64,000 nt of DNA, taken from NCBI GenBank assembly GCA_016935565.1, contig JAFGQS010000041.1, forward strand, positions 1-64,000, written 5' to 3'. The notes below the pieces were generated by a model. That model saw only the letters and a program-made list of their open reading frames with translations, was not told where the DNA came from and ran no database searches. The stretch is from Deltaproteobacteria bacterium (GTDB taxonomy: Bacteria > Desulfobacterota > Syntrophia > Syntrophales > UBA6807). Shown in pieces: positions 48,425 to 58,055 of the stretch (position 1 is its first letter; each line of letters starts with the position of its first letter). The position numbers were made by a program, and so were the translations under genes.

Positions 48425-49672
48425 TTATTCCCAGTTTCTCTTATCAATCAACATTTTGTCACCATCGGATATGCTCCCCGGCGTCACCAGTTCAAAGGCA
48501 TCTATTTTTACCGTACATATACTCTGAAAATGTTTTTCAAATCGCTCAGTAAGCTGGTGCTCATCATTGCCGGTTTCTATGACCGCAGTCACGTAGTCAC
48601 GATATGATTCTCTTGTGATAACAATCTGATAGTTTATATTATTAAAGCGTTCCTTTATTGTACTCAGCTGGCTGGGAGCAATGAAGAGTCCCCTCACTTT
48701 TACCGCATCCCCTACCCTTCCTGCGATACCGTTCATTTTATAAGATGTTCTTCCGCACGGACATGCTTCTTCCGTCAAACTCGAAAGATCACCTGTGCCG
48801 AATCGAAACAGAAAAAAAACATCATTCAGTCTGGTAACAACAACCTCACCCAACTGGCCGGGTTCAACACGTTTACCTGAATCCGGATCGACGATTTCGA
48901 CGATTACTTCTTCGCAAATATGCCAGCCTCTTTTTTCGGAACACTCATATGCTATATCACCGACTTCAGTCGCACCATACATCTGATAGGTGTCAATTCC
49001 ATACTCTTCTTCAAATTTGTTTCTCAGGGATGCCTGCAGGGGTTCGGCTACAAAATTTGCCTTACGAATTGTAAAATCTTTTTTAACATCATATCCCATC
49101 TCTTCGGCCTTCGTAATAATTGCCATGAGAAAACTCGGCGTTCCCGTATACCCGTTGACTTTTAAGTGATTGATCAATTGAACCTGAATTTCGGTGCTTG
49201 ATGTTCCCGATGGGACAACGGTTGCACCGACGGCCCTGAGTCCTTCGTGAAATGTCAATCCCGCGGCAACCATATGATAGGAAAATGTGTTGAGCACAAT
49301 ATCGCCCTTTCCGAAACCAGCCGCAGAGTAACCCCTTCTCCACAGGGGTTCTTTTTCTGTTAAATGAGGTTCATAAACGGGACCCGGTGAGGTAAATATT
49401 CTGTCAATGTCGGCATCGACTCGACAGAATCCGCCAAACGGCAAGTTCTGCAATTCGAAATCAATAACCTGTTCGCGAGAAATGACGGGTAGTTTTTCAA
49501 GATCGGCAACGGAACGAACATCCGCCGGTTTCAGTCCCAAGGTGTCGAATGTGTCTCTGACCCACTCCGAATGTTCATAACCGAGTTCTACCATGTGAGA
49601 CAGTTTTCGACTGTAACCGGTCTCTCTTTCTGCGGGAGACCTTGTCTCCAGGTCATCAAAAAAACGTTTCAT
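48425..49672 (-). CDS. Phenylacetate-CoA ligase-like adenylate-forming enzyme
   Basis: PaaK-like layout: YSAAGFGKGDIVLNTFSYHMVAAGL, YQMYGATEVGDIAYEC, FRFGTGDLSSLTEEACPCGRTSYKMNGIAGRVGDAVKVRGLFI. Confidence 0.85.
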   Translation of the reverse strand: MKRFFDDLETRSPAERETGYSRKLSHMVELGYEHSEWVRDTFDTLGLKPADVRSVADLEKLPVISREQVIDFELQNLPFGGFCRVDADIDRIFTSPGPVYEPHLTEKEPLWRRGYSAAGFGKGDIVLNTFSYHMVAAGLTFHEGLRAVGATVVPSGTSSTEIQVQLINHLKVNGYTGTPSFLMAIITKAEEMGYDVKKDFTIRKANFVAEPLQASLRNKFEEEYGIDTYQMYGATEVGDIAYECSEKRGWHICEEVIVEIVDPDSGKRVEPGQLGEVVVTRLNDVFFLFRFGTGDLSSLTEEACPCGRTSYKMNGIAGRVGDAVKVRGLFIAPSQLSTIKERFNNINYQIVITRESYRDYVTAVIETGNDEHQLTERFEKHFQSICTVKIDAFELVTPGSISDGDKMLIDKRNWE

Positions 49673-49787
49673 ATTTGTGTTCCCTTCAGTATAAAAAATG
49701 CTCTGAATAAACAATTTGTCAGTCATTAACTATATATAAATAACCATACTATATCGAGCTGAATGCTGATCGCTGAAAGCTTACAAG

Positions 49788-50591
49788 TTACAGCCACCGC
49801 TTACGTCGTTTATATGCCTTTACATCCTTATAGGATTTTGTTAGTCCGGAAGCACCCATGCCTAAGTAAAATTCCCGTACATCAGGGTTTTTCTTCAGTT
49901 CATCCGCTTTCCCCTCCATGACGATTTTACCGTTTTCCATGACATATCCATAATGAGCGATTTGCAGGGCCATATTTGCATTCTGTTCAACAAGAATAAT
50001 TGTTGTCCCCTGTTCTTCATTGATTCTTCTTATTATTTTGAATATTTCCTTTACAACGAGCGGCGCGAGTCCCAGCGAGGGTTCATCCAGCAATAAGAGT
50101 TTGGGGTGCGCGATTAACGCTCTCCCGATGACGAGCATCTGCAATTCACCGCCGCTGCAATAACCGGCGAGTGTTTTTTTTCGCTTTACCAACGGAGGAA
50201 AGTAATCGTAGATCAGTTCCATGTCTTTTTTGTACGGTTTCCCCCATCGCGTTGCAGTTCCCACCCGCAAGTTTTCTTCAATCGTCAGATATTTAAACGG
50301 CTGCCGTCCCTCTAAAACCTGAATAATACCCATACGTGTGATATCTTCAGGAGCGGAATTCTGTATCTCTTTACCTTCGTACATAAGGGTACCGTCGGTA
50401 ACCTTTCCGTTTTCAGGTTTGAGGAGACCTGATATTGCCTTCAACGTGGTTGTCTTACCGGCTCCGTTGCTTCCCAGCAGTGAGACGATTTTATTTTGTT
50501 CCACGAGGAGAGAAACGCCTTTCAAAACCTGTATGACATCGGAATACACGACGCTGATATTGTTCAGTTGTAGCAGTGTATTATCCTTCAT
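49788..50591 (-). CDS. livF: Branched-chain-amino-acid-type ABC transporter ATP-binding protein (LivF)
   Basis: Walker A GSNGAGKTTTLKAISG, signature CSGGELQMLVIGRAL, LLLDEPSLGLAP. Confidence 0.92.
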   Translation of the reverse strand: MKDNTLLQLNNISVVYSDVIQVLKGVSLLVEQNKIVSLLGSNGAGKTTTLKAISGLLKPENGKVTDGTLMYEGKEIQNSAPEDITRMGIIQVLEGRQPFKYLTIEENLRVGTATRWGKPYKKDMELIYDYFPPLVKRKKTLAGYCSGGELQMLVIGRALIAHPKLLLLDEPSLGLAPLVVKEIFKIIRRINEEQGTTIILVEQNANMALQIAHYGYVMENGKIVMEGKADELKKNPDVREFYLGMGASGLTKSYKDVKAYKRRKRWL

Positions 50592-50724
50592 ATTCCTCTA
50601 CTCTGTACCCTATTATCTTCATGCGGCAAAGCCGCTTTTCGCCGTTATCATTTTCCTTGTCTGCTTGAGTTAACACCAACATCTGCGCAAAAAACGCAAT
50701 TATTGAGAATAAAGACTCCGAACC

Positions 50725-51795
50725 TTAATACGAGAACGGCCAGAGTCTGAAACTCGAACGAATAATTCTCCATACTTCGGCAAGACCTCTCGGTTCAAAC
50801 AAGATGAAAAGTACGATGGTAAAACCAAATGCCAGTTCTCGAATCGGGGCTATGCTCAATTCTACTCCCTGCAGTATTCCCGTATTCATGAAAACGTCTG
50901 TCAACCACCGCAAGATTTCATTGAGAACGGTTATAAACGTTGCCCCGAAAATTGAACCTGCTATGTTACCCATTCCTCCAATTATCACCATGGCCAGGTA
51001 TTCTACGGACAATCCCAGGTTGAAGGGCTCTGTGGTAATACTGATCATGTAATATGCCCATATTGCCCCGGCGAATCCTGCATAGAAAGAACTGATTGCG
51101 AAGGCAAGAAGCTTGTAACGGAATATGGGAATACCCATTCCCTCGGCTGCCTGATCGTTATCCCGAATTGCGACGAACGCCCGTCCGTACCGCGTGCGCA
51201 TGATATTAACAGCAATATATGTCATGAGTATAAGAGAAAGGAAAATGATGTAAAAAAAGGCGCGGTCACCCTCCAGGGAAATTCCAAAGAGAGTCGCCTT
51301 AGGCAGAACAATTCCCATCGTCCCCTTTGTTAAAGTCTCCCAGTGCACAAGAACATATTCGATAATGAATTGTCCGGCCAGTGTTGCAATGGTCAGGTAC
51401 AGGCCCTTCAATCGAACGGACGGAATTCCGAAAATCATGCCGATCAATGCGGTTACTAACCCGGCACATGGAACAGCAACCCAGAAAGGAACGTGTAATG
51501 CCGTGGCAAAAATAGCTCCCGCGTAAGCCCCGACTCCAAAAAAAGCTCCATGTCCCAGTGATATCTGGCCGGTATATCCCACGAGAATGTTCAGGCCGAT
51601 TGCTGCGATTGAAGCGATGCCGATAATATTAATCACATACAGTACATAGGGTCCCGAAATGACTGGCACAAGAGCAAAGAGCAGGACAAGACTCAAAAAA
51701 ACCGCAGTCCTTCCGAAATCAGTCTCATAGATTGTAAGTTCCTGTTCGTATCCTTCCCTGAAGTTTCCGCAGGGGTGAAAATGTAATTTTCTCAT
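50725..51795 (-). CDS. livM: LivM-type ABC transporter permease
   Basis: Multi-TM; GLNILVGYTGQISLGHGAFFGVGAYAGA. Confidence 0.92.
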   Translation of the reverse strand: MRKLHFHPCGNFREGYEQELTIYETDFGRTAVFLSLVLLFALVPVISGPYVLYVINIIGIASIAAIGLNILVGYTGQISLGHGAFFGVGAYAGAIFATALHVPFWVAVPCAGLVTALIGMIFGIPSVRLKGLYLTIATLAGQFIIEYVLVHWETLTKGTMGIVLPKATLFGISLEGDRAFFYIIFLSLILMTYIAVNIMRTRYGRAFVAIRDNDQAAEGMGIPIFRYKLLAFAISSFYAGFAGAIWAYYMISITTEPFNLGLSVEYLAMVIIGGMGNIAGSIFGATFITVLNEILRWLTDVFMNTGILQGVELSIAPIRELAFGFTIVLFILFEPRGLAEVWRIIRSSFRLWPFSY

Positions 51796-51893
51796 TTTAT
51801 ATCGCCATGTTATTTCATTTTAACAACTGTATTCCTAAAAAATGCGTCATCAAACTAACAACTCGAATCCTGAAACTCTGATCTCTCAACTGA

Positions 51894-52772
51894 TCATACC
51901 CGTTCAATCTCCACGAGTCCGAATAGACCATAGGGCCTGACCAGGAGAATAAAAACGAGTACAATATAAGGTACGACGTCACGAAGAGACGGAGACAGGT
52001 AACCTCCGGTAAATGTTTCAAGGAGACCTATGATGAGCCCACCGACAATGGCACCGCCGATGCTGTCAAGACCTCCCAGGATTACGACCGGAAATACTTT
52101 GAGGCCCACGGAAGACAGGTCATGGACATTAATACCGTTGATAATACCCAGAATGATACCACTCATTCCTGCCACAAGGGCTGCAATGGCCCAGGACAGG
52201 GCAAAGACGCGTCGCACGTTAACTCCGAGCGAGAGAGATGCCGTTTGATTGTCCGCTACGGATCTCATATAAATTCCCTGAGAAGAAAATTTAAAGAAAA
52301 AGCCAAAGAGTGTTAGAAACAACAGGCCAATGACTATGGAAATGACATATACGGGTGGAATATTAATGCTTCCCATCTGAATCGAGAGGTGAGCCGGAAG
52401 AAAATCCGGGTAAATATACAAATTGCCACCCCAGATGAGCAACATGAGTCCCTTAAAAATGGAAGCCAATCCCACCGTTAACATGATAACATAAATGAGG
52501 GGCTCTCCGATTAAAGGGCGTAGAAAAAGGCGTTCAATGACGAATCCGAGAACAAACGTACCCGCAAGCGTTATGACAAAAGCAAGAAAAATAGGCAATT
52601 TCGCCCATGTGACGAGTGTTAGAAATATGAAAGCTCCTGCCGCTAGCAGCTCGCCATGAGCGAAATTGAGGACACTTGACGACTTAAAAATCATCACAAA
52701 TCCCATGGCTGCAAGACCATAAAGAAATCCGATACTAATACCGTTGACCAATAACTGGATTAAAAAATCCAT
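51894..52772 (-). CDS. livH: LivH-type ABC transporter permease
   Basis: LVNGISIGFLYGLAAMGFVMIFKSSSVLNFAHGELLAAGAF; start set at MDFLIQ. Confidence 0.92.
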   Translation of the reverse strand: MDFLIQLLVNGISIGFLYGLAAMGFVMIFKSSSVLNFAHGELLAAGAFIFLTLVTWAKLPIFLAFVITLAGTFVLGFVIERLFLRPLIGEPLIYVIMLTVGLASIFKGLMLLIWGGNLYIYPDFLPAHLSIQMGSINIPPVYVISIVIGLLFLTLFGFFFKFSSQGIYMRSVADNQTASLSLGVNVRRVFALSWAIAALVAGMSGIILGIINGINVHDLSSVGLKVFPVVILGGLDSIGGAIVGGLIIGLLETFTGGYLSPSLRDVVPYIVLVFILLVRPYGLFGLVEIERV

Positions 52773-52851
52773 GAAGGAGACCCTCCGTATATAATTATAC
52801 AAGTTTAGCCATTCATGTTTCACGTAAGACATCAAACATGAACACAGGTGT

Positions 52852-54810
52852 TCAGGGAAGGCTTAAAACCTTCACCGTCGTTTCAATCGTATTAACCTGA
52901 CCATTGCGGTATCTGATTGTACTTTTAACGTCTACTTCATTTTCATTGGAATACATGGCCTCTATCAGCTTGACATAGAGACCGTAGACGAATCGTCTCC
53001 GGACCTTTCCCGTTCGTGTTAATTCTTCATCATCCGCATCAAGAAGTTTGTATAGAAGGATCATCTTATTGATTTTCATGTGATCCGGTAAGCGTTCATT
53101 GACGTCTGCAACTTCTTGAATGATTAGGTCCTCGACCGCCTGCTGTTGAGAAAGGTCGGTATAAGTCGTATAGGGGATTAATCTCTCTTCCGCCCAGTTC
53201 CCGACATTTCCCATATCAATATTGATAAAGGCCGTTATATACGGTCGCGCTTCACCGAAGGTAACAGCCTCTTTTATATAAGGACTGAATTTCAGGCGCG
53301 TTTCTATGAAATCCGGTGAAAAGGCATGACCGTCTTTGTCACGAATAATCTCTTCCTTTCTTCCAATGATAACCAGATGACCGTCTTCATCAACATACCC
53401 GGCATCGCCGGTTCGAAGCCAGCCATCGTTAAAGGCTGACTGGGTCGCATCATAATCATTGTAATAACCCCTGAAGTTTGCCTTGCTGTGTACGAGAACT
53501 TCCTGATCATCTGATATTTTGACATCTGTTCCCGGGAGCGGTTTACCTACTGTCTCTGCCTTCACTTCATGGTCCGGCTGAACCTGGAAAATACCACCGG
53601 CTTCAGTAAGACCGTAACATTGTTTGAGATTTAACCCGACTGAACGGAAAAATCGGATGACATCGGGGCTGATGGGGTGTCCACCGGTAAAGGCGCTGAT
53701 AATTTGAGAACATCCGACACGGTCCAGAAGGGGATGAAAGATGACATAGGAAGCAAGTCGATTCAAAATCTTGAGATGAAGCGGTACTGCTCGTTTCTGA
53801 GATTCAAGATCGACAACCCTTCCTCCTATTTTTTCACAGATGGAGAAAAGCTTACGCTTGATGAATCCGGCATCACCCATCTTTACGCGAATTGTTGATG
53901 CAAGATCTTCCCAGAACCGTGAGGATGTAATGATGACGGACGGACCGATTTCACGAAAATCATGAATGACGGTTTCCGGCATTTCCGGAAAGTTCATCGG
54001 CATTCCACCGATGAGGGCAACCCCGAGCCACATCTGATCAACAATCCATGCCGGCGGTGAAATGGAGAACCAGTTTGTTCCTGGACCTATCGAATCATTG
54101 TCTAACCACTTTCGTGCCATTTCGTTATAATTACTATGGGATAGCATCGCCAGTTTGGATATTCCCGTTGTACCGGATGTCATGATCATGTGGGCGATAT
54201 CATTTGATCTGCCCTTCCACAATTCCGTTTCGAACAGTTCCTGTTTCGTTTTATCAAGTTCATCCCCTCTCTCGAGGAGCTCGTGAAAACTGAGAAGCCA
54301 ATCATCGCCGGTGTATGATCGCATACCGGTAGGATCAACAAAAATAACCTTTTGGACAGTTGAAAGTTTTTCCCTGGCCTCAAGAAGTTTGTCGACCTGT
54401 TCCTGATCTTCTGCAATGACATAGCTTGCCCGAATCCGATTCAACGCATTGGCCAATTCATCCGACACGGCAGATGTAAACAAATTAAGTGTGACGGCAC
54501 CCACGGCCTGTCCACCCAGTTCGGCAAACAACCACTCCGAGTGATTATCCGTAATAATCCCGATGTTATCCCCCCGACGTAACCCCAGGGATTTCAACCC
54601 CAACCCCGTTTTCTTAACGAATTCAAAATACTCGGTCCAGCTATACGTCTGCCAGATACCGTATGCTTTTTCACGTACGGCAACACCATTCATTCCGATA
54701 CGTTCAGCCTGTTTTGCCAGAATCTGCGGTAGTGTCAGTTTGCTCAGTTCGGAAACAGTATTGTAATCCATCATCATTTTTCCAAGTATAAAACCGCTTG
54801 TTAAACTCAT
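52852..54810 (-). CDS. AMP-dependent long-chain acyl-CoA synthetase
   Basis: AHMIMTSGTTGISKLAMLSHSN, CYGLTEAGGIFQVQ, GWLRTGDAGYVDEDGHLVIIGRKEEIIRDKDG. Confidence 0.9.
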   Translation of the reverse strand: MSLTSGFILGKMMMDYNTVSELSKLTLPQILAKQAERIGMNGVAVREKAYGIWQTYSWTEYFEFVKKTGLGLKSLGLRRGDNIGIITDNHSEWLFAELGGQAVGAVTLNLFTSAVSDELANALNRIRASYVIAEDQEQVDKLLEAREKLSTVQKVIFVDPTGMRSYTGDDWLLSFHELLERGDELDKTKQELFETELWKGRSNDIAHMIMTSGTTGISKLAMLSHSNYNEMARKWLDNDSIGPGTNWFSISPPAWIVDQMWLGVALIGGMPMNFPEMPETVIHDFREIGPSVIITSSRFWEDLASTIRVKMGDAGFIKRKLFSICEKIGGRVVDLESQKRAVPLHLKILNRLASYVIFHPLLDRVGCSQIISAFTGGHPISPDVIRFFRSVGLNLKQCYGLTEAGGIFQVQPDHEVKAETVGKPLPGTDVKISDDQEVLVHSKANFRGYYNDYDATQSAFNDGWLRTGDAGYVDEDGHLVIIGRKEEIIRDKDGHAFSPDFIETRLKFSPYIKEAVTFGEARPYITAFINIDMGNVGNWAEERLIPYTTYTDLSQQQAVEDLIIQEVADVNERLPDHMKINKMILLYKLLDADDEELTRTGKVRRRFVYGLYVKLIEAMYSNENEVDVKSTIRYRNGQVNTIETTVKVLSLP

Positions 54811-54879
54811 ACATGAGGCTTTGGGTTAAAGGTGACTGACCCTCACCTAATCCGTTTTCATTAGCCTTTTGTCATTTAC

Positions 54880-55707
54880 CTACAGGGTACTTTCATCACC
54901 AAGATATGCTTTAATGACTTCCGTGTTGTCTTGGATATCATCCACAGTTCCTTCTGCAAGTTTTTCCCCGAAATTCAATACCATGATACGCTTGGAAATC
55001 GACATCACAATGGACATGTCATGTTCAACGAGTATCATTGTCTGCTTCCACCCTTCATTCAGTTCCACAAGAAACCGGACCATATCTTCTTTTTCCTCAA
55101 GATTCATGCCTGCAAAGGGTTCATCGAGAATTAAGATGTTCGGTTCCAAGGCAAGTGCCCGTCCCAGTTCCACTCTCTTTCTCAAGCCATAGGGCAAAGA
55201 CCCAACAAGTTGATTTCTGATCGGTTGCATTTCAAGAAAGTCGATCAATTCTTCTAAAATATGGCGGTGAGCCACCTCTTCCCTGCGAACAGACGGTGTA
55301 AAGAGTGATGCAAAACCAAAACCATACTCGCAGTGAATATGGCGTGCCAACAGCATATTGGACAGTACAGTCATGCCCGGAAACAGTTCTATGTTCTGAA
55401 ATGTTCTTCCAATTCCTCGTCGTACGAGCTCATGGGGCGGTAAATACGTTATATCCTCATTATTGAAAAATATTTTTCCGCTCTGCGGTCGATAATAGCC
55501 TGTAATACAATTCAAGAGACTCGTTTTGCCTGCCCCGTTCGGCCCGATCACAGCGAACAGCTCGCCCGCATGTACCGACATATCGATTTCACTGAGAGCC
55601 ATAACGCCCCCAAAGCTCAGTGACAAACGAGCTACCTCAAGATCGGCTGTCTTTTGTTCCTGTTTTGCCGTGCTGAAAATGCTCGGGCGACCTCGTAATG
55701 ATTTCAT
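54880..55707 (-). CDS. livG: LivG-type ABC transporter ATP-binding protein
   Basis: GPNGAGKTSLLNCITGYY, LPYGLRKRVELGRALALEPNILILDEPFAGMN. Confidence 0.92.
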   Translation of the reverse strand: MKSLRGRPSIFSTAKQEQKTADLEVARLSLSFGGVMALSEIDMSVHAGELFAVIGPNGAGKTSLLNCITGYYRPQSGKIFFNNEDITYLPPHELVRRGIGRTFQNIELFPGMTVLSNMLLARHIHCEYGFGFASLFTPSVRREEVAHRHILEELIDFLEMQPIRNQLVGSLPYGLRKRVELGRALALEPNILILDEPFAGMNLEEKEDMVRFLVELNEGWKQTMILVEHDMSIVMSISKRIMVLNFGEKLAEGTVDDIQDNTEVIKAYLGDESTL

Positions 55708-55719
55708 TTCCTTACCATT

Positions 55720-56931
55720 TCAATAACTTATCATTTTAATCTTTTCTTTCCCGGGTATGAAATAGTTTGTCAACGGTGTAAAGCGACCATCTTCGTGTAC
55801 CTGAACGATTCTCGCTTTCGATGAAGCTTCATGATTCGTCTTCGTGTAGGTAATGTTCGGAACAAGGCCTCCGAAGTTCTCATTTGAAAAAGACTCCATC
55901 GCCTTGTTTATCGTTTCTCTGTTTATTTTCCCGTATTTTTCCTTCGCACGGAGCAGCGCCCGTTCCATTATCGTGCCGATGACGACACCTTCCCAGTATG
56001 AAGCATCGAATTTATCAACGGTTTTGTACCGGGACCATAACTCCTTTAACAACGTGATACCCTCAGATTGATCGACGGGAAGTCCGCCGGGAAATTGGAT
56101 AATCAGGCGATTCCGGATTAATCCCTTGCCCATTTTGAAGAAGTCAGGGTCGGTAGATGTCCAGGTGCCGAAAAATGGTGGCTCATACTCAATTCGATCT
56201 GCACACTTCAAGGTTGTAATAATCGCAGCAGGAAGCATTTGCATAAAGATATACTCGGCCCCCACTTTTCTTAAACGAAGGAGTTCGGTTGTCAAATCAA
56301 CCGTTTTGGGGGGAAATTCCTCGATTGCTACAATATTGATATTATGTTTTTCCGCATATTCCCTGCTCGGTTTATGTATGGATCGTCCATATGCATTGTT
56401 GTAAGTTAAAAGGCCGACTTTGGGAGCATCAGTGCCTTTGTGAATAGTCCGGATGTATTCAAGAATTGCATAACAGTCCAATTTGTAACTTCCAAAGGGA
56501 AGATAGAAATAATCAATTGGTGGTTCAAGAATCTCCCAGCTCGTTGAAAAATTAATCGTCGGTATTTTGTATCGTTGTATAATCGGTTTCGCAGCCAAAC
56601 CTTCACCGGCACCCCAGGTTGCAATCATGTCGACCTTGTCACGAACGGCGAATTTACGCACTGCCGCAACCGCTTCCGGCACTTTATAGCCCGTATCAAC
56701 CAGGATCAGGGTTACCGTGCTACCGTGGATTCCACCCTTAACGTCGTTTACATAATTCAAATAATCCTGGAGGCCCCTTGCATGGAACCGTCCCCAGGTG
56801 GAAGCAGGTCCTGTTAAATTGATTGCAGCTCCAATCTTCAATGTCTGGGCCGATGTATCATTCGCCCAGCCCATCAATACCGAAAGAGCAAGCGCCATCA
56901 CGATGGTGAGTACCTTTGATATTCTGTTCAT
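55720..56931 (-). CDS. livK: Branched-chain/aromatic-type ABC transporter substrate-binding protein (LivK-like)
   Basis: Signal peptide MNRISKVLTIVMALALSVLMGWANDTSAQ; LKIGAAINLTGPASTWGRFHARGLQDYLNY. ATG at 56931 with AAGGGAGG upstream; the listed ORF start at 57030 reads through two terminator hairpins. Confidence 0.9.
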   Translation of the reverse strand: MNRISKVLTIVMALALSVLMGWANDTSAQTLKIGAAINLTGPASTWGRFHARGLQDYLNYVNDVKGGIHGSTVTLILVDTGYKVPEAVAAVRKFAVRDKVDMIATWGAGEGLAAKPIIQRYKIPTINFSTSWEILEPPIDYFYLPFGSYKLDCYAILEYIRTIHKGTDAPKVGLLTYNNAYGRSIHKPSREYAEKHNINIVAIEEFPPKTVDLTTELLRLRKVGAEYIFMQMLPAAIITTLKCADRIEYEPPFFGTWTSTDPDFFKMGKGLIRNRLIIQFPGGLPVDQSEGITLLKELWSRYKTVDKFDASYWEGVVIGTIMERALLRAKEKYGKINRETINKAMESFSNENFGGLVPNITYTKTNHEASSKARIVQVHEDGRFTPLTNYFIPGKEKIKMISY

Positions 56932-56947
56932 TTTTTCCTCCCTTGTT

Positions 56948-56977
56948 AAAAAAAAGGCCGTGTAGAACACGGCCTTT
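56948..56977 (-). terminator. Second intrinsic terminator in the livK leader
   Basis: Minus strand AAAGGCCGTGT-TCT-ACACGGCCTTT followed by further Ts, ending about 9 bp before the livK RBS. Confidence 0.85.
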
Positions 56978-56982
56978 AAACT

Positions 56983-57019
56983 AAAAAAGCCGTGGGCAGT
57001 TTTTCGGTCCGCCCACGGC
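56983..57019 (-). terminator. Attenuator terminator of the Phe leader
   Basis: Minus strand GCCGTGGGC-GGACCGAAAAACT-GCCCACGGC-TTTTTT. Confidence 0.88.
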
Positions 57020-57037
57020 CCACATACCACTTTCAGG

Positions 57038-57124
57038 TTACGAGCTCAGCAGGCAGACCTCACCAAAAAAGCTAAAAAAAGCAAAAAAACTGCCGAATCT
57101 CGAAAACCTACTATTTACCATCAT
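57038..57124 (-). CDS. Phenylalanine-rich leader peptide (attenuation), not in the ORF track
   Basis: ATGATGGTAAATAGTAGGTTTTCGAGATTCGGCAGTTTTTTTGCTTTTTTTAGCTTTTTTGGTGAGGTCTGCCTGCTGAGCTCGTAA encodes MMVNSRFSRFGSFFAFFSFFGEVCLLSS*; GGAGG 3 or 6 nt upstream of the two ATGs. Confidence 0.82.
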   Translation of the reverse strand: MMVNSRFSRFGSFFAFFSFFGEVCLLSS

Positions 57125-57144
57125 TTACCTCCAAGATAACCGTA

Positions 57145-57173
57145 TATTTAACGTACGACGCTTTAAAAGTCAA
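57145..57173 (-). promoter_or_regulatory. Sigma70-like promoter of the Phe-leader/liv operon
   Basis: Minus strand TTGACT (57168..57173), N16, TTAAAT (57146..57151) (alternative N17 TAAATA), just upstream of the leader RBS and downstream of the hflC stop. Confidence 0.55.
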
Positions 57174-57191: not shown

Positions 57192-58055
57192 TTATTTGAG
57201 GTATTTTAAAAACTTTGAATCAGGTGTTATAACAAGAGTCGTATCCTCTTTTAATGTTTTCTTGTACGCTTCAAGACTCCGCAGAAATTCAAAGAATTCC
57301 ACGTCTTTGTTATATGCATCGGCATATATCTTTATGGACTTTGCATCACCTTCGCCCTTTGTTTTTTCAGCCTCTTTATAGGCCTTTGCCAGAATGATCG
57401 ACCGTTCCATATCGGCTTTCGCCGTAATCTTCTGAGATTCTTCTTTTCCTTCAGAACGATACTGTCTGGCCTGTCGTTCCCGCTCCGCCCTCATTCTATC
57501 GAAAACATGCTTTTCGTTCTGTTCCGGAAGATCCGCTCGCTTGATTCGCACATCGACAACTTCTATGCCATATTCATGAGCACGGTCTGCCGACGCCTTT
57601 GTAACTTTTGACATAACTTCACTTCTCGTTACCGTTACGATATCGGACAAATTGTGTTGCCCCAATTCGACACGCAACTGGGCATAAACAATATCATCAA
57701 GTCTCGCCTGCGCCCCCATAACATTCTTGACGGTTTTAAAAAACATCAACGGCTCAACAATTTTCCATTTTGTATAGTTGTCAACGACAAGATTCTTTTT
57801 ATCTTTTGTGAGAATTTCAGTCGGTGGTGCATCGTATACCAGTATTCTGCTCTCAAAATTCACAATCTGCTGAATAAACGGTATCTTGAAGTGAAGTCCC
57901 GGGCCATACACACCTTCTAACGGTTTTCCCAGCTGTATAACGATCACCTGCTGCGTCTGGTCCACCGTAAAGAGAGCTTGAGAGGCAACGAGAACGATAA
58001 CAAACACCATAATGATACCCACTGTACTCTTTTTTTTCATTGTTCTCTCCGTCAT
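57192..58055 (-). CDS. hflC: HflC, SPFH-domain modulator of FtsH
   Basis: SPFH/prohibitin domain: TVDQTQQVIVIQLGKPLEGVYGPGLHFKIPFIQQIVNFESRILVYD. Confidence 0.93.
   Translation of the reverse strand: MTERTMKKKSTVGIIMVFVIVLVASQALFTVDQTQQVIVIQLGKPLEGVYGPGLHFKIPFIQQIVNFESRILVYDAPPTEILTKDKKNLVVDNYTKWKIVEPLMFFKTVKNVMGAQARLDDIVYAQLRVELGQHNLSDIVTVTRSEVMSKVTKASADRAHEYGIEVVDVRIKRADLPEQNEKHVFDRMRAERERQARQYRSEGKEESQKITAKADMERSIILAKAYKEAEKTKGEGDAKSIKIYADAYNKDVEFFEFLRSLEAYKKTLKEDTTLVITPDSKFLKYLK

Follow-up and report, generated by a model that had tools for sequence, protein, structure and literature searches.

Attenuators of the trp and phe type consist of four RNA segments, carry a leader peptide in which the regulated residue is abundant, and follow a 1:2/2:3/3:4 logic. 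In the his leader, the ON fold combines the pairings B:C and D:E. The stem-loops AB, CD and EF, the alternative DE and the terminator EF were described for the his leader of Escherichia and Salmonella (PMC10989985), in which an extra hairpin, placed after the pause hairpin and before the terminator, was modelled as lowering basal readthrough (PMC10989985; PMC1183508). The trp attenuator logic is also given in PMC1183508. Tandem terminators were found in the rimP leader of some Gammaproteobacteria, in which a potential antiterminator accompanies the first of the two (PMC2965389), and the mgtCBR leader of Salmonella comprises two attenuation steps and two short ORFs that respond to independent, additive signals (PMC3641672). 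A literature search of partial coverage, within papers open to search without subscription, turned up no case in which a single sensor drives two serial terminators; likewise, it found nothing on tandem terminators combined with leader peptide attenuation, or on Phe attenuation in Deltaproteobacteria.

Here we describe the leader of a livK-type operon on the minus strand of the window, i.e., the whole stretch of 64,000 nucleotides analyzed. We are fairly confident that it is an attenuator that senses Phe-tRNA supply through the ribosome, with two serial terminators driven by a single sensor via a strand-exchange relay.

Results

The upstream neighbor of the leader is hflC, which ends at 57192 and is followed by a likely promoter, a GGAGG motif and a short ORF. 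TTGACT (57173-57168) and TAAATA (57150-57145), separated by 17 nt, are likely the sigma70 promoter of the leader (57145..57173, minus strand, as all features below); comparison of upstream regions revealed a similarly placed TTGACA or TTGACT in the leaders L004, L005, and L010. The Shine-Dalgarno sequence GGAGG (57128..57132) precedes a 27-codon ORF (57038..57121) for the leader peptide MVNSRFSRFGSFFAFFSFFGEVCLLSS*, in which 8 of the 27 residues are Phe. Segment 1 (57090..57108), assigned from the minimum-energy (MFE) fold, in which it pairs with segment 2, overlaps codons 5-11 and lies directly before the FFAFFSFF run. Segment 2 (GGTCTGCC, 57052..57059) lies within the end of the ORF, and its partner within segment 3 is GGCGGACC. 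The preliminary description was silent on the Phe-rich peptide, its Shine-Dalgarno sequence and segments 1 and 2; it is the leader peptide that gives the pairing 2:3 its meaning.

Segment 3 (GCCGTGGGCGGACC, 57006..57019) is the 5' arm of terminator 1 (T1; hairpin 3:4, 56989..57019), the arms of which, GCCGTGGGCGG and CTGCCCACGGC, are followed by TTTTTT. Segment 4 is its 3' arm (CTGCCCACGGC, 56983..56999 including the U-tract). Segment 5 (AAAGGCCGTGT, 56967..56977) is the 5' arm of terminator 2 (T2) and can pair with either segment 4 or segment 6 (ACACGGCCTTT, 56953..56963), the T2 3' arm. T2 with its U-tract covers 56948..56977, with the stem AAAGGCCGTGT-TCT-ACACGGCCTTT at 56977-56953, and is followed immediately by the livK Shine-Dalgarno sequence GGGAGG (56937..56942). 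These positions agree with the preliminary description, which had noted two terminators 11 bp apart between the stems (57019-56989 and 56977-56953, with the 11-nt spacer at 56988-56978) and the second abutting the livK ribosome binding site (U-tract end at 56948, GGGAGG at 56942-56937). The arm motifs that it named can likewise be read from the sequence, GGCCGTG in the 5' arms and CACGGC in the 3' arms of both hairpins. No second leader peptide for T2 was found, as just 11 nt separate the two stems.

A terminator consensus scan listed T2 and left T1 unlisted, probably because the loop of T1 exceeds the length that the scan accepts. The fold of the window leader was better than that of 200/200 shuffled sequences (z -3.4). 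In Rfam, no family scored above its gathering score for the leader, the best being SorY with 29.2 bits versus 111 required.

The first gene of the controlled operon encodes a livK-like periplasmic binding protein (55720..56931, ATG at 56931; Peripla_BP_6, E 7e-45). It is followed by livG, an AMP-ligase gene, livH, livM, livF, and a gene for a PaaK-like ligase down to 48425, the names being based on NCBIfam matches, most of them under the curated cut-offs. The operon behind the Phe leader (48425-56931, minus strand) combines transporter genes of the Liv type with genes for an AMP-ligase and a PaaK-like ligase. This gene content suggests that, at low Phe, an aryl acid or a Phe precursor is taken up and activated, rather than a role in branched-chain amino acid uptake.

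The livK orthologues were gathered by protein homology from 100 relatives and from named genomes, the latter being for the most part Syntrophaceae and Smithella-type MAGs. Of the 70 upstream regions fetched first, 55 contain a Phe-rich leader peptide with a Shine-Dalgarno sequence, as detected by a script, and many of these peptides end in F..EVCLLxS. By eye and by script, 60 distinct livK leaders from 14 Syntrophales families were assigned to the tandem set. Most orthologue leaders have a U-tract after T1, and the tandem leaders have one after the T2 hairpin; in 12/60 of the latter, the U-tract of T1 opens with fewer than five U's. The Smithella clade carries T1 without T2, and each of its 31 leaders that were measured has nine U's there. 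As the contrast with the tandem leaders may reflect a single loss event, its p-value was set aside. Similarly, the L088-type clade has T1 alone with a long U-tract. T1 was kept in the upstream regions L047 and L055, in which T2 is decayed or missing. In L046, the leader peptide lies ~434 nt 5' of livK, as if an insertion had separated them, and no T2 was found adjoining livK.

Pairing was quantified as the percentage of paired cells in alignment A1 of the 60 tandem livK leaders. The pairing 2:3 was formed in 99.2% of the cells, with two pairs showing two-sided change, and 3:4 in 94.2%, again with two-sided changes. For 4:5 the value was 97.7%, compared to 93.7% for 5:6, the stem of T2 itself. 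The pairing 4:5 exceeded 500/500 shuffles, dropped to 26-49% when the segments were slid against each other, and showed two-sided change in three pairs. Segment 5 is common to both pairings, so that they can be compared at identical bases: at two adjacent segment 5 columns, 16 and 9 of the 60 leaders are unpaired in 5:6 versus 1 and 0 in 4:5. With bulges allowed for, imperfect six-base cores were counted in 22 leaders from seven families for 5:6 and in six leaders from two families for 4:5; none of the 60 leaders is imperfect in the 4:5 core alone. Seven leaders (L016, L018, L021, L027, L032, L033, and L044) have a U bulge in T2 while their segment 5 still matches segment 4, and L049 combines a C.A mismatch in T2 with a perfect 4:5 (CCGCGGC/GCCGCGG); bulged or mismatched forms of T2 with 4:5 kept occur in several families. 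The two-sided changes in 4:5 are A-U to G-C in L037, L049, L062, and L065, and C-G to U-A in L064. Within T2, the 5' arm is better conserved than the 3' arm.

In the window, 4:5 can form between CACGGCUUU (56994-56986) and AAGGCCGUG (56976-56968). The preliminary description had proposed a pairing of about 6-9 bp that blocks T2; the pairing stood with nine pairs including one G-U, and the block is retained here as a putative consequence. It had also chosen the conservation of arm 4/arm 5 complementarity beforehand as the comparison on which the relay could fail. This complementarity was kept in 14 families, at a higher level than 5:6 and with two-sided changes.

As a null model, the base pairs of hairpin 2 were permuted with composition kept, and the complementarity of segment 5 to segment 4 was measured. 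An automatic parser identified the hairpins; 6/60 livK leaders had no parsed hairpin pair, and in some others hairpins were missed or misassigned. Nine mis-parsed leaders were counted in the permuted-stem test and left out of the sets for 4:5-versus-T2 stability and arm reassignment. In 49 of the 54 parsed livK leaders 4:5 was stronger than in the permuted stems (p<=0.05), with a median of -16.8 versus about -7.5 kcal/mol. Matched arms 4 and 5 paired better than 200/200 reassignments across operon classes. When segment 5 was reassigned inside one operon class, 4:5 was no worse (-16.8 vs -16.7); the arms are too strongly conserved for this comparison to be informative, and any fine-scale coevolution of arms 4 and 5 within a class would lie below the resolution of the test. 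The only place with the motif GCCGTG-N3..14-CACGGC in the 3.06 Mb genome, searched in full, is T2 itself; the motif is therefore not a generic terminator motif in that genome. A null model from generic terminators in the fetched loci was dropped, as the hairpins were few and many of them were the leaders themselves; permuted T2 stems and the whole-genome motif count were used instead.

Minimum-energy folds of the growing chain of the window leader were calculated with the ribosome modelled as stalled on Phe. The predicted order was 2:3, 3:4, 2:3+4:5, and 5:6. Once segment 4 has emerged and before segment 5 does, equilibrium favors 3:4, and 2:3+4:5 is the minimum-energy fold exactly while segment 5, and not segment 6, is exposed. 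The T1 hairpin 3:4 folds with -24.2 kcal/mol and 2:3+4:5 with -24.4. The latter is near parity with 2:3 combined with the T2 GC core (-25.8), but not with 2:3 plus full T2 (5:6; -29.1). Across operon classes, the stability of 4:5 is similar to that of the T2 GC core and usually lower than that of the full T2 stem. As full T2 beats 4:5 at equilibrium, the relay must be kinetic, or it leaks. According to these folds, the main uncertainty of the mechanism would lie in the relay winning in time.

A covariance model built from the leader matched (E<=0.001) in 152/155 Syntrophales genomes and in 211/395 genomes sampled across the phylum, a subset of the matches being inspected. The genes behind the inspected matches, as named from recognizing their sequences, are other LivK-like genes, with Tyr-rich leader peptides, AMP-ligase genes, trpE, ilvB, aroF, and an aldolase-type gene. 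The arms in question are part of the model, and its matches were therefore not counted for 4:5 conservation; trpE, ilvB, aldolase-type, and aroF loci were resampled by protein homology. The parsed two-hairpin leaders cover part of each of these protein-anchored sets, the lowest share being that of the aldolase-type (9/28), and 4:5 exceeded the permuted null (p<=0.05) in 22/24 of those parsed for trpE, 22/26 for ilvB, 7/9 for aldolase-type and 16/19 for aroF. The aroF leaders mostly carry CCATGGC/GCCATGG instead of CCACGGC/GCCGTGG, and 4:5 is weak or mismatched in L355 and L360 of this class. In the aldolase-type leaders L225-L229, hairpin 1 is followed by a TGAAA-like sequence without a U-tract, and 2:3, 3:4, 4:5, and T2 are retained; leader control can therefore reach their sole terminator only via 4:5. 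Several livK leaders, as well as L255 and L262, also have a poor U-tract after hairpin 1.

Some individual loci were recorded in addition. L209 (G000:C193:48450-48565, minus strand) is a second tandem leader in this genome, located before another AMP-ligase gene, and its sister loci L212 and L213 have Phe-rich peptides. L210 (G000:C176:24027-24144) is an ilvB-like leader with a Val-rich peptide and again a two-hairpin relay. L185, L186, L188, L191, and L192, from another family of the phylum, combine Tyr-rich peptides and tandem terminators before a different LivK-like gene.

Discussion

The mechanism that we propose would operate as follows. In the OFF state (1:2/3:4/5:6), polymerases reading past T1 would meet T2, formed by 5:6. 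At scarce Phe, the ribosome would stall on the Phe run and 2:3 would form, leaving segment 4 free to pair with segment 5 as soon as it emerges. Segment 6 would then be without a partner and the polymerase would proceed into livK (ON, 2:3/4:5). A low leak is a plausible benefit, as OFF readthrough would be the product of two terminators and the ON state would pass both. The analysis shows the sequence itself, conservation of the peptide and of the pairings 2:3, 3:4, 4:5, and 5:6, and recurrence of the 4:5 complementarity before further operons; stalling, the folding order, the loss of T2 on formation of 4:5 and this benefit are inferred. The observation of the two hairpins in the preliminary description is confirmed, and its relay states are supported by the comparative evidence; the mechanism itself, including the coupling, is a proposal from sequence.

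If T1 alone were regulated, T2 would be a plain backup passing a fixed fraction, and the shared arms would be incidental or the remnant of a duplication. The strong hairpin and long U-tract of T2 and the higher stability of complete 5:6 compared to 4:5 agree with this, but such a T2 would block livK in the ON state. Moreover, 4:5 is better conserved than 5:6 where the two share bases (unpaired leaders out of 60: 1 vs 16 at one column, 0 vs 9 at the other), the arm motif is unique in the genome, and the single terminator of L225-L229, which have no T1 U-tract, must be the regulated one. Judged from the alignments, a plain terminator gives no reason for T2 defects with 4:5 kept, nor for two-sided changes in 4:5, and we regard an uncoupled backup as improbable.

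A purely his-type leader, in which 3:4 is a relay hairpin with a weak or unimportant U-tract and T2 the sole terminator that matters, would share the 4:5 relay with the serial mechanism and differ on the role of T1 alone. The missing U-tract of L225-L229 and the poor ones of L255, L262, and several livK leaders point in this direction; the good U-tract after T1 in the window and most leaders speaks against it, as do the Smithella-clade and L088-type leaders, which keep T1 alone with a long U-tract and indicate that T1 can terminate. We consider this reading unlikely. Hairpin 2 might also act post-transcriptionally, as a 5' stability barrier, as a processing site or as a conserved RNA-protein site behind the conserved GGCCGTGG. 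Such a role would fit its location directly 5' of the livK Shine-Dalgarno sequence and the conservation of its 5' arm above that of its 3' arm, but not the U-tract that follows it in tandem leaders. Furthermore, segments 4 and 5 change together, from CCACGGC/GCCGTGG to CCGCGGC/GCCGCGG and CCATGGC/GCCATGG, as expected from pairing and unlike a fixed protein site, which argues against an RNA-protein site; a post-transcriptional role of hairpin 2 appears very improbable.

Returning to the serial relay, we lean on balance toward its wide use in Desulfobacterota, as an attenuator in which a single ribosome sensor controls two intrinsic terminators and antitermination is passed from T1 to T2 by a conserved strand-exchange step. 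It would serve leaders of the Phe, Trp, Tyr, mixed aromatic, and Val/Ile kinds, and some lineages would have lost the first U-tract or the whole of T2. If true, one amino acid signal would gate two serial stops, which could cut leak without a second sensor. The natural series of leaders with both terminators, T1 alone, or T2 alone bears on why the extra hairpin of his-type leaders exists, and many unannotated Desulfobacterota leaders become recognizable via the covariance model.

Compared to known systems, the livK leader has the features of an attenuator: a leader peptide with a Shine-Dalgarno sequence and a run of regulatory codons, and a conserved antiterminator (2:3) that is mutually exclusive with an intrinsic terminator (3:4). 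Its Phe response, with more expression at low charged tRNA, is predicted. Trp/phe-type attenuators are without the second terminator and the 4:5 step of the tandem livK leaders; the Smithella-clade leaders resemble this simpler form. The rimP leader differs in that its stem motifs are mutually inverse, no relay was proposed and no leader peptide was described (PMC2965389). Like the livK leader, mgtCBR has two attenuation steps within one leader, but two signals act there, whereas one signal would pass through both stops here.

The his leader is the closest in design. Both have six segments and three hairpins in the OFF state and share the states 1:2/3:4/5:6 and 2:3/4:5, and a conserved 4:5 (D:E) exclusive with 3:4 and 5:6 is present in the livK leader. 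In the his leader, U's are described after EF only, whereas the middle hairpin 3:4 of the livK leaders usually has the form of an intrinsic terminator too; the last hairpin is the only intrinsic terminator in L225-L229, but not in the window and most orthologues. The novelty lies in this middle hairpin usually being a terminator as well, and the surprise in serial terminators and their wide recurrence. Instead of His codons and a his operon, Phe codons and a livK-type transporter operon are found; the sister leaders are of the Trp, Tyr, or Val/Ile type, the target genes include a transporter operon, and the phylum differs. By its proposed mechanism the livK leader is his-like, yet it is no his leader.
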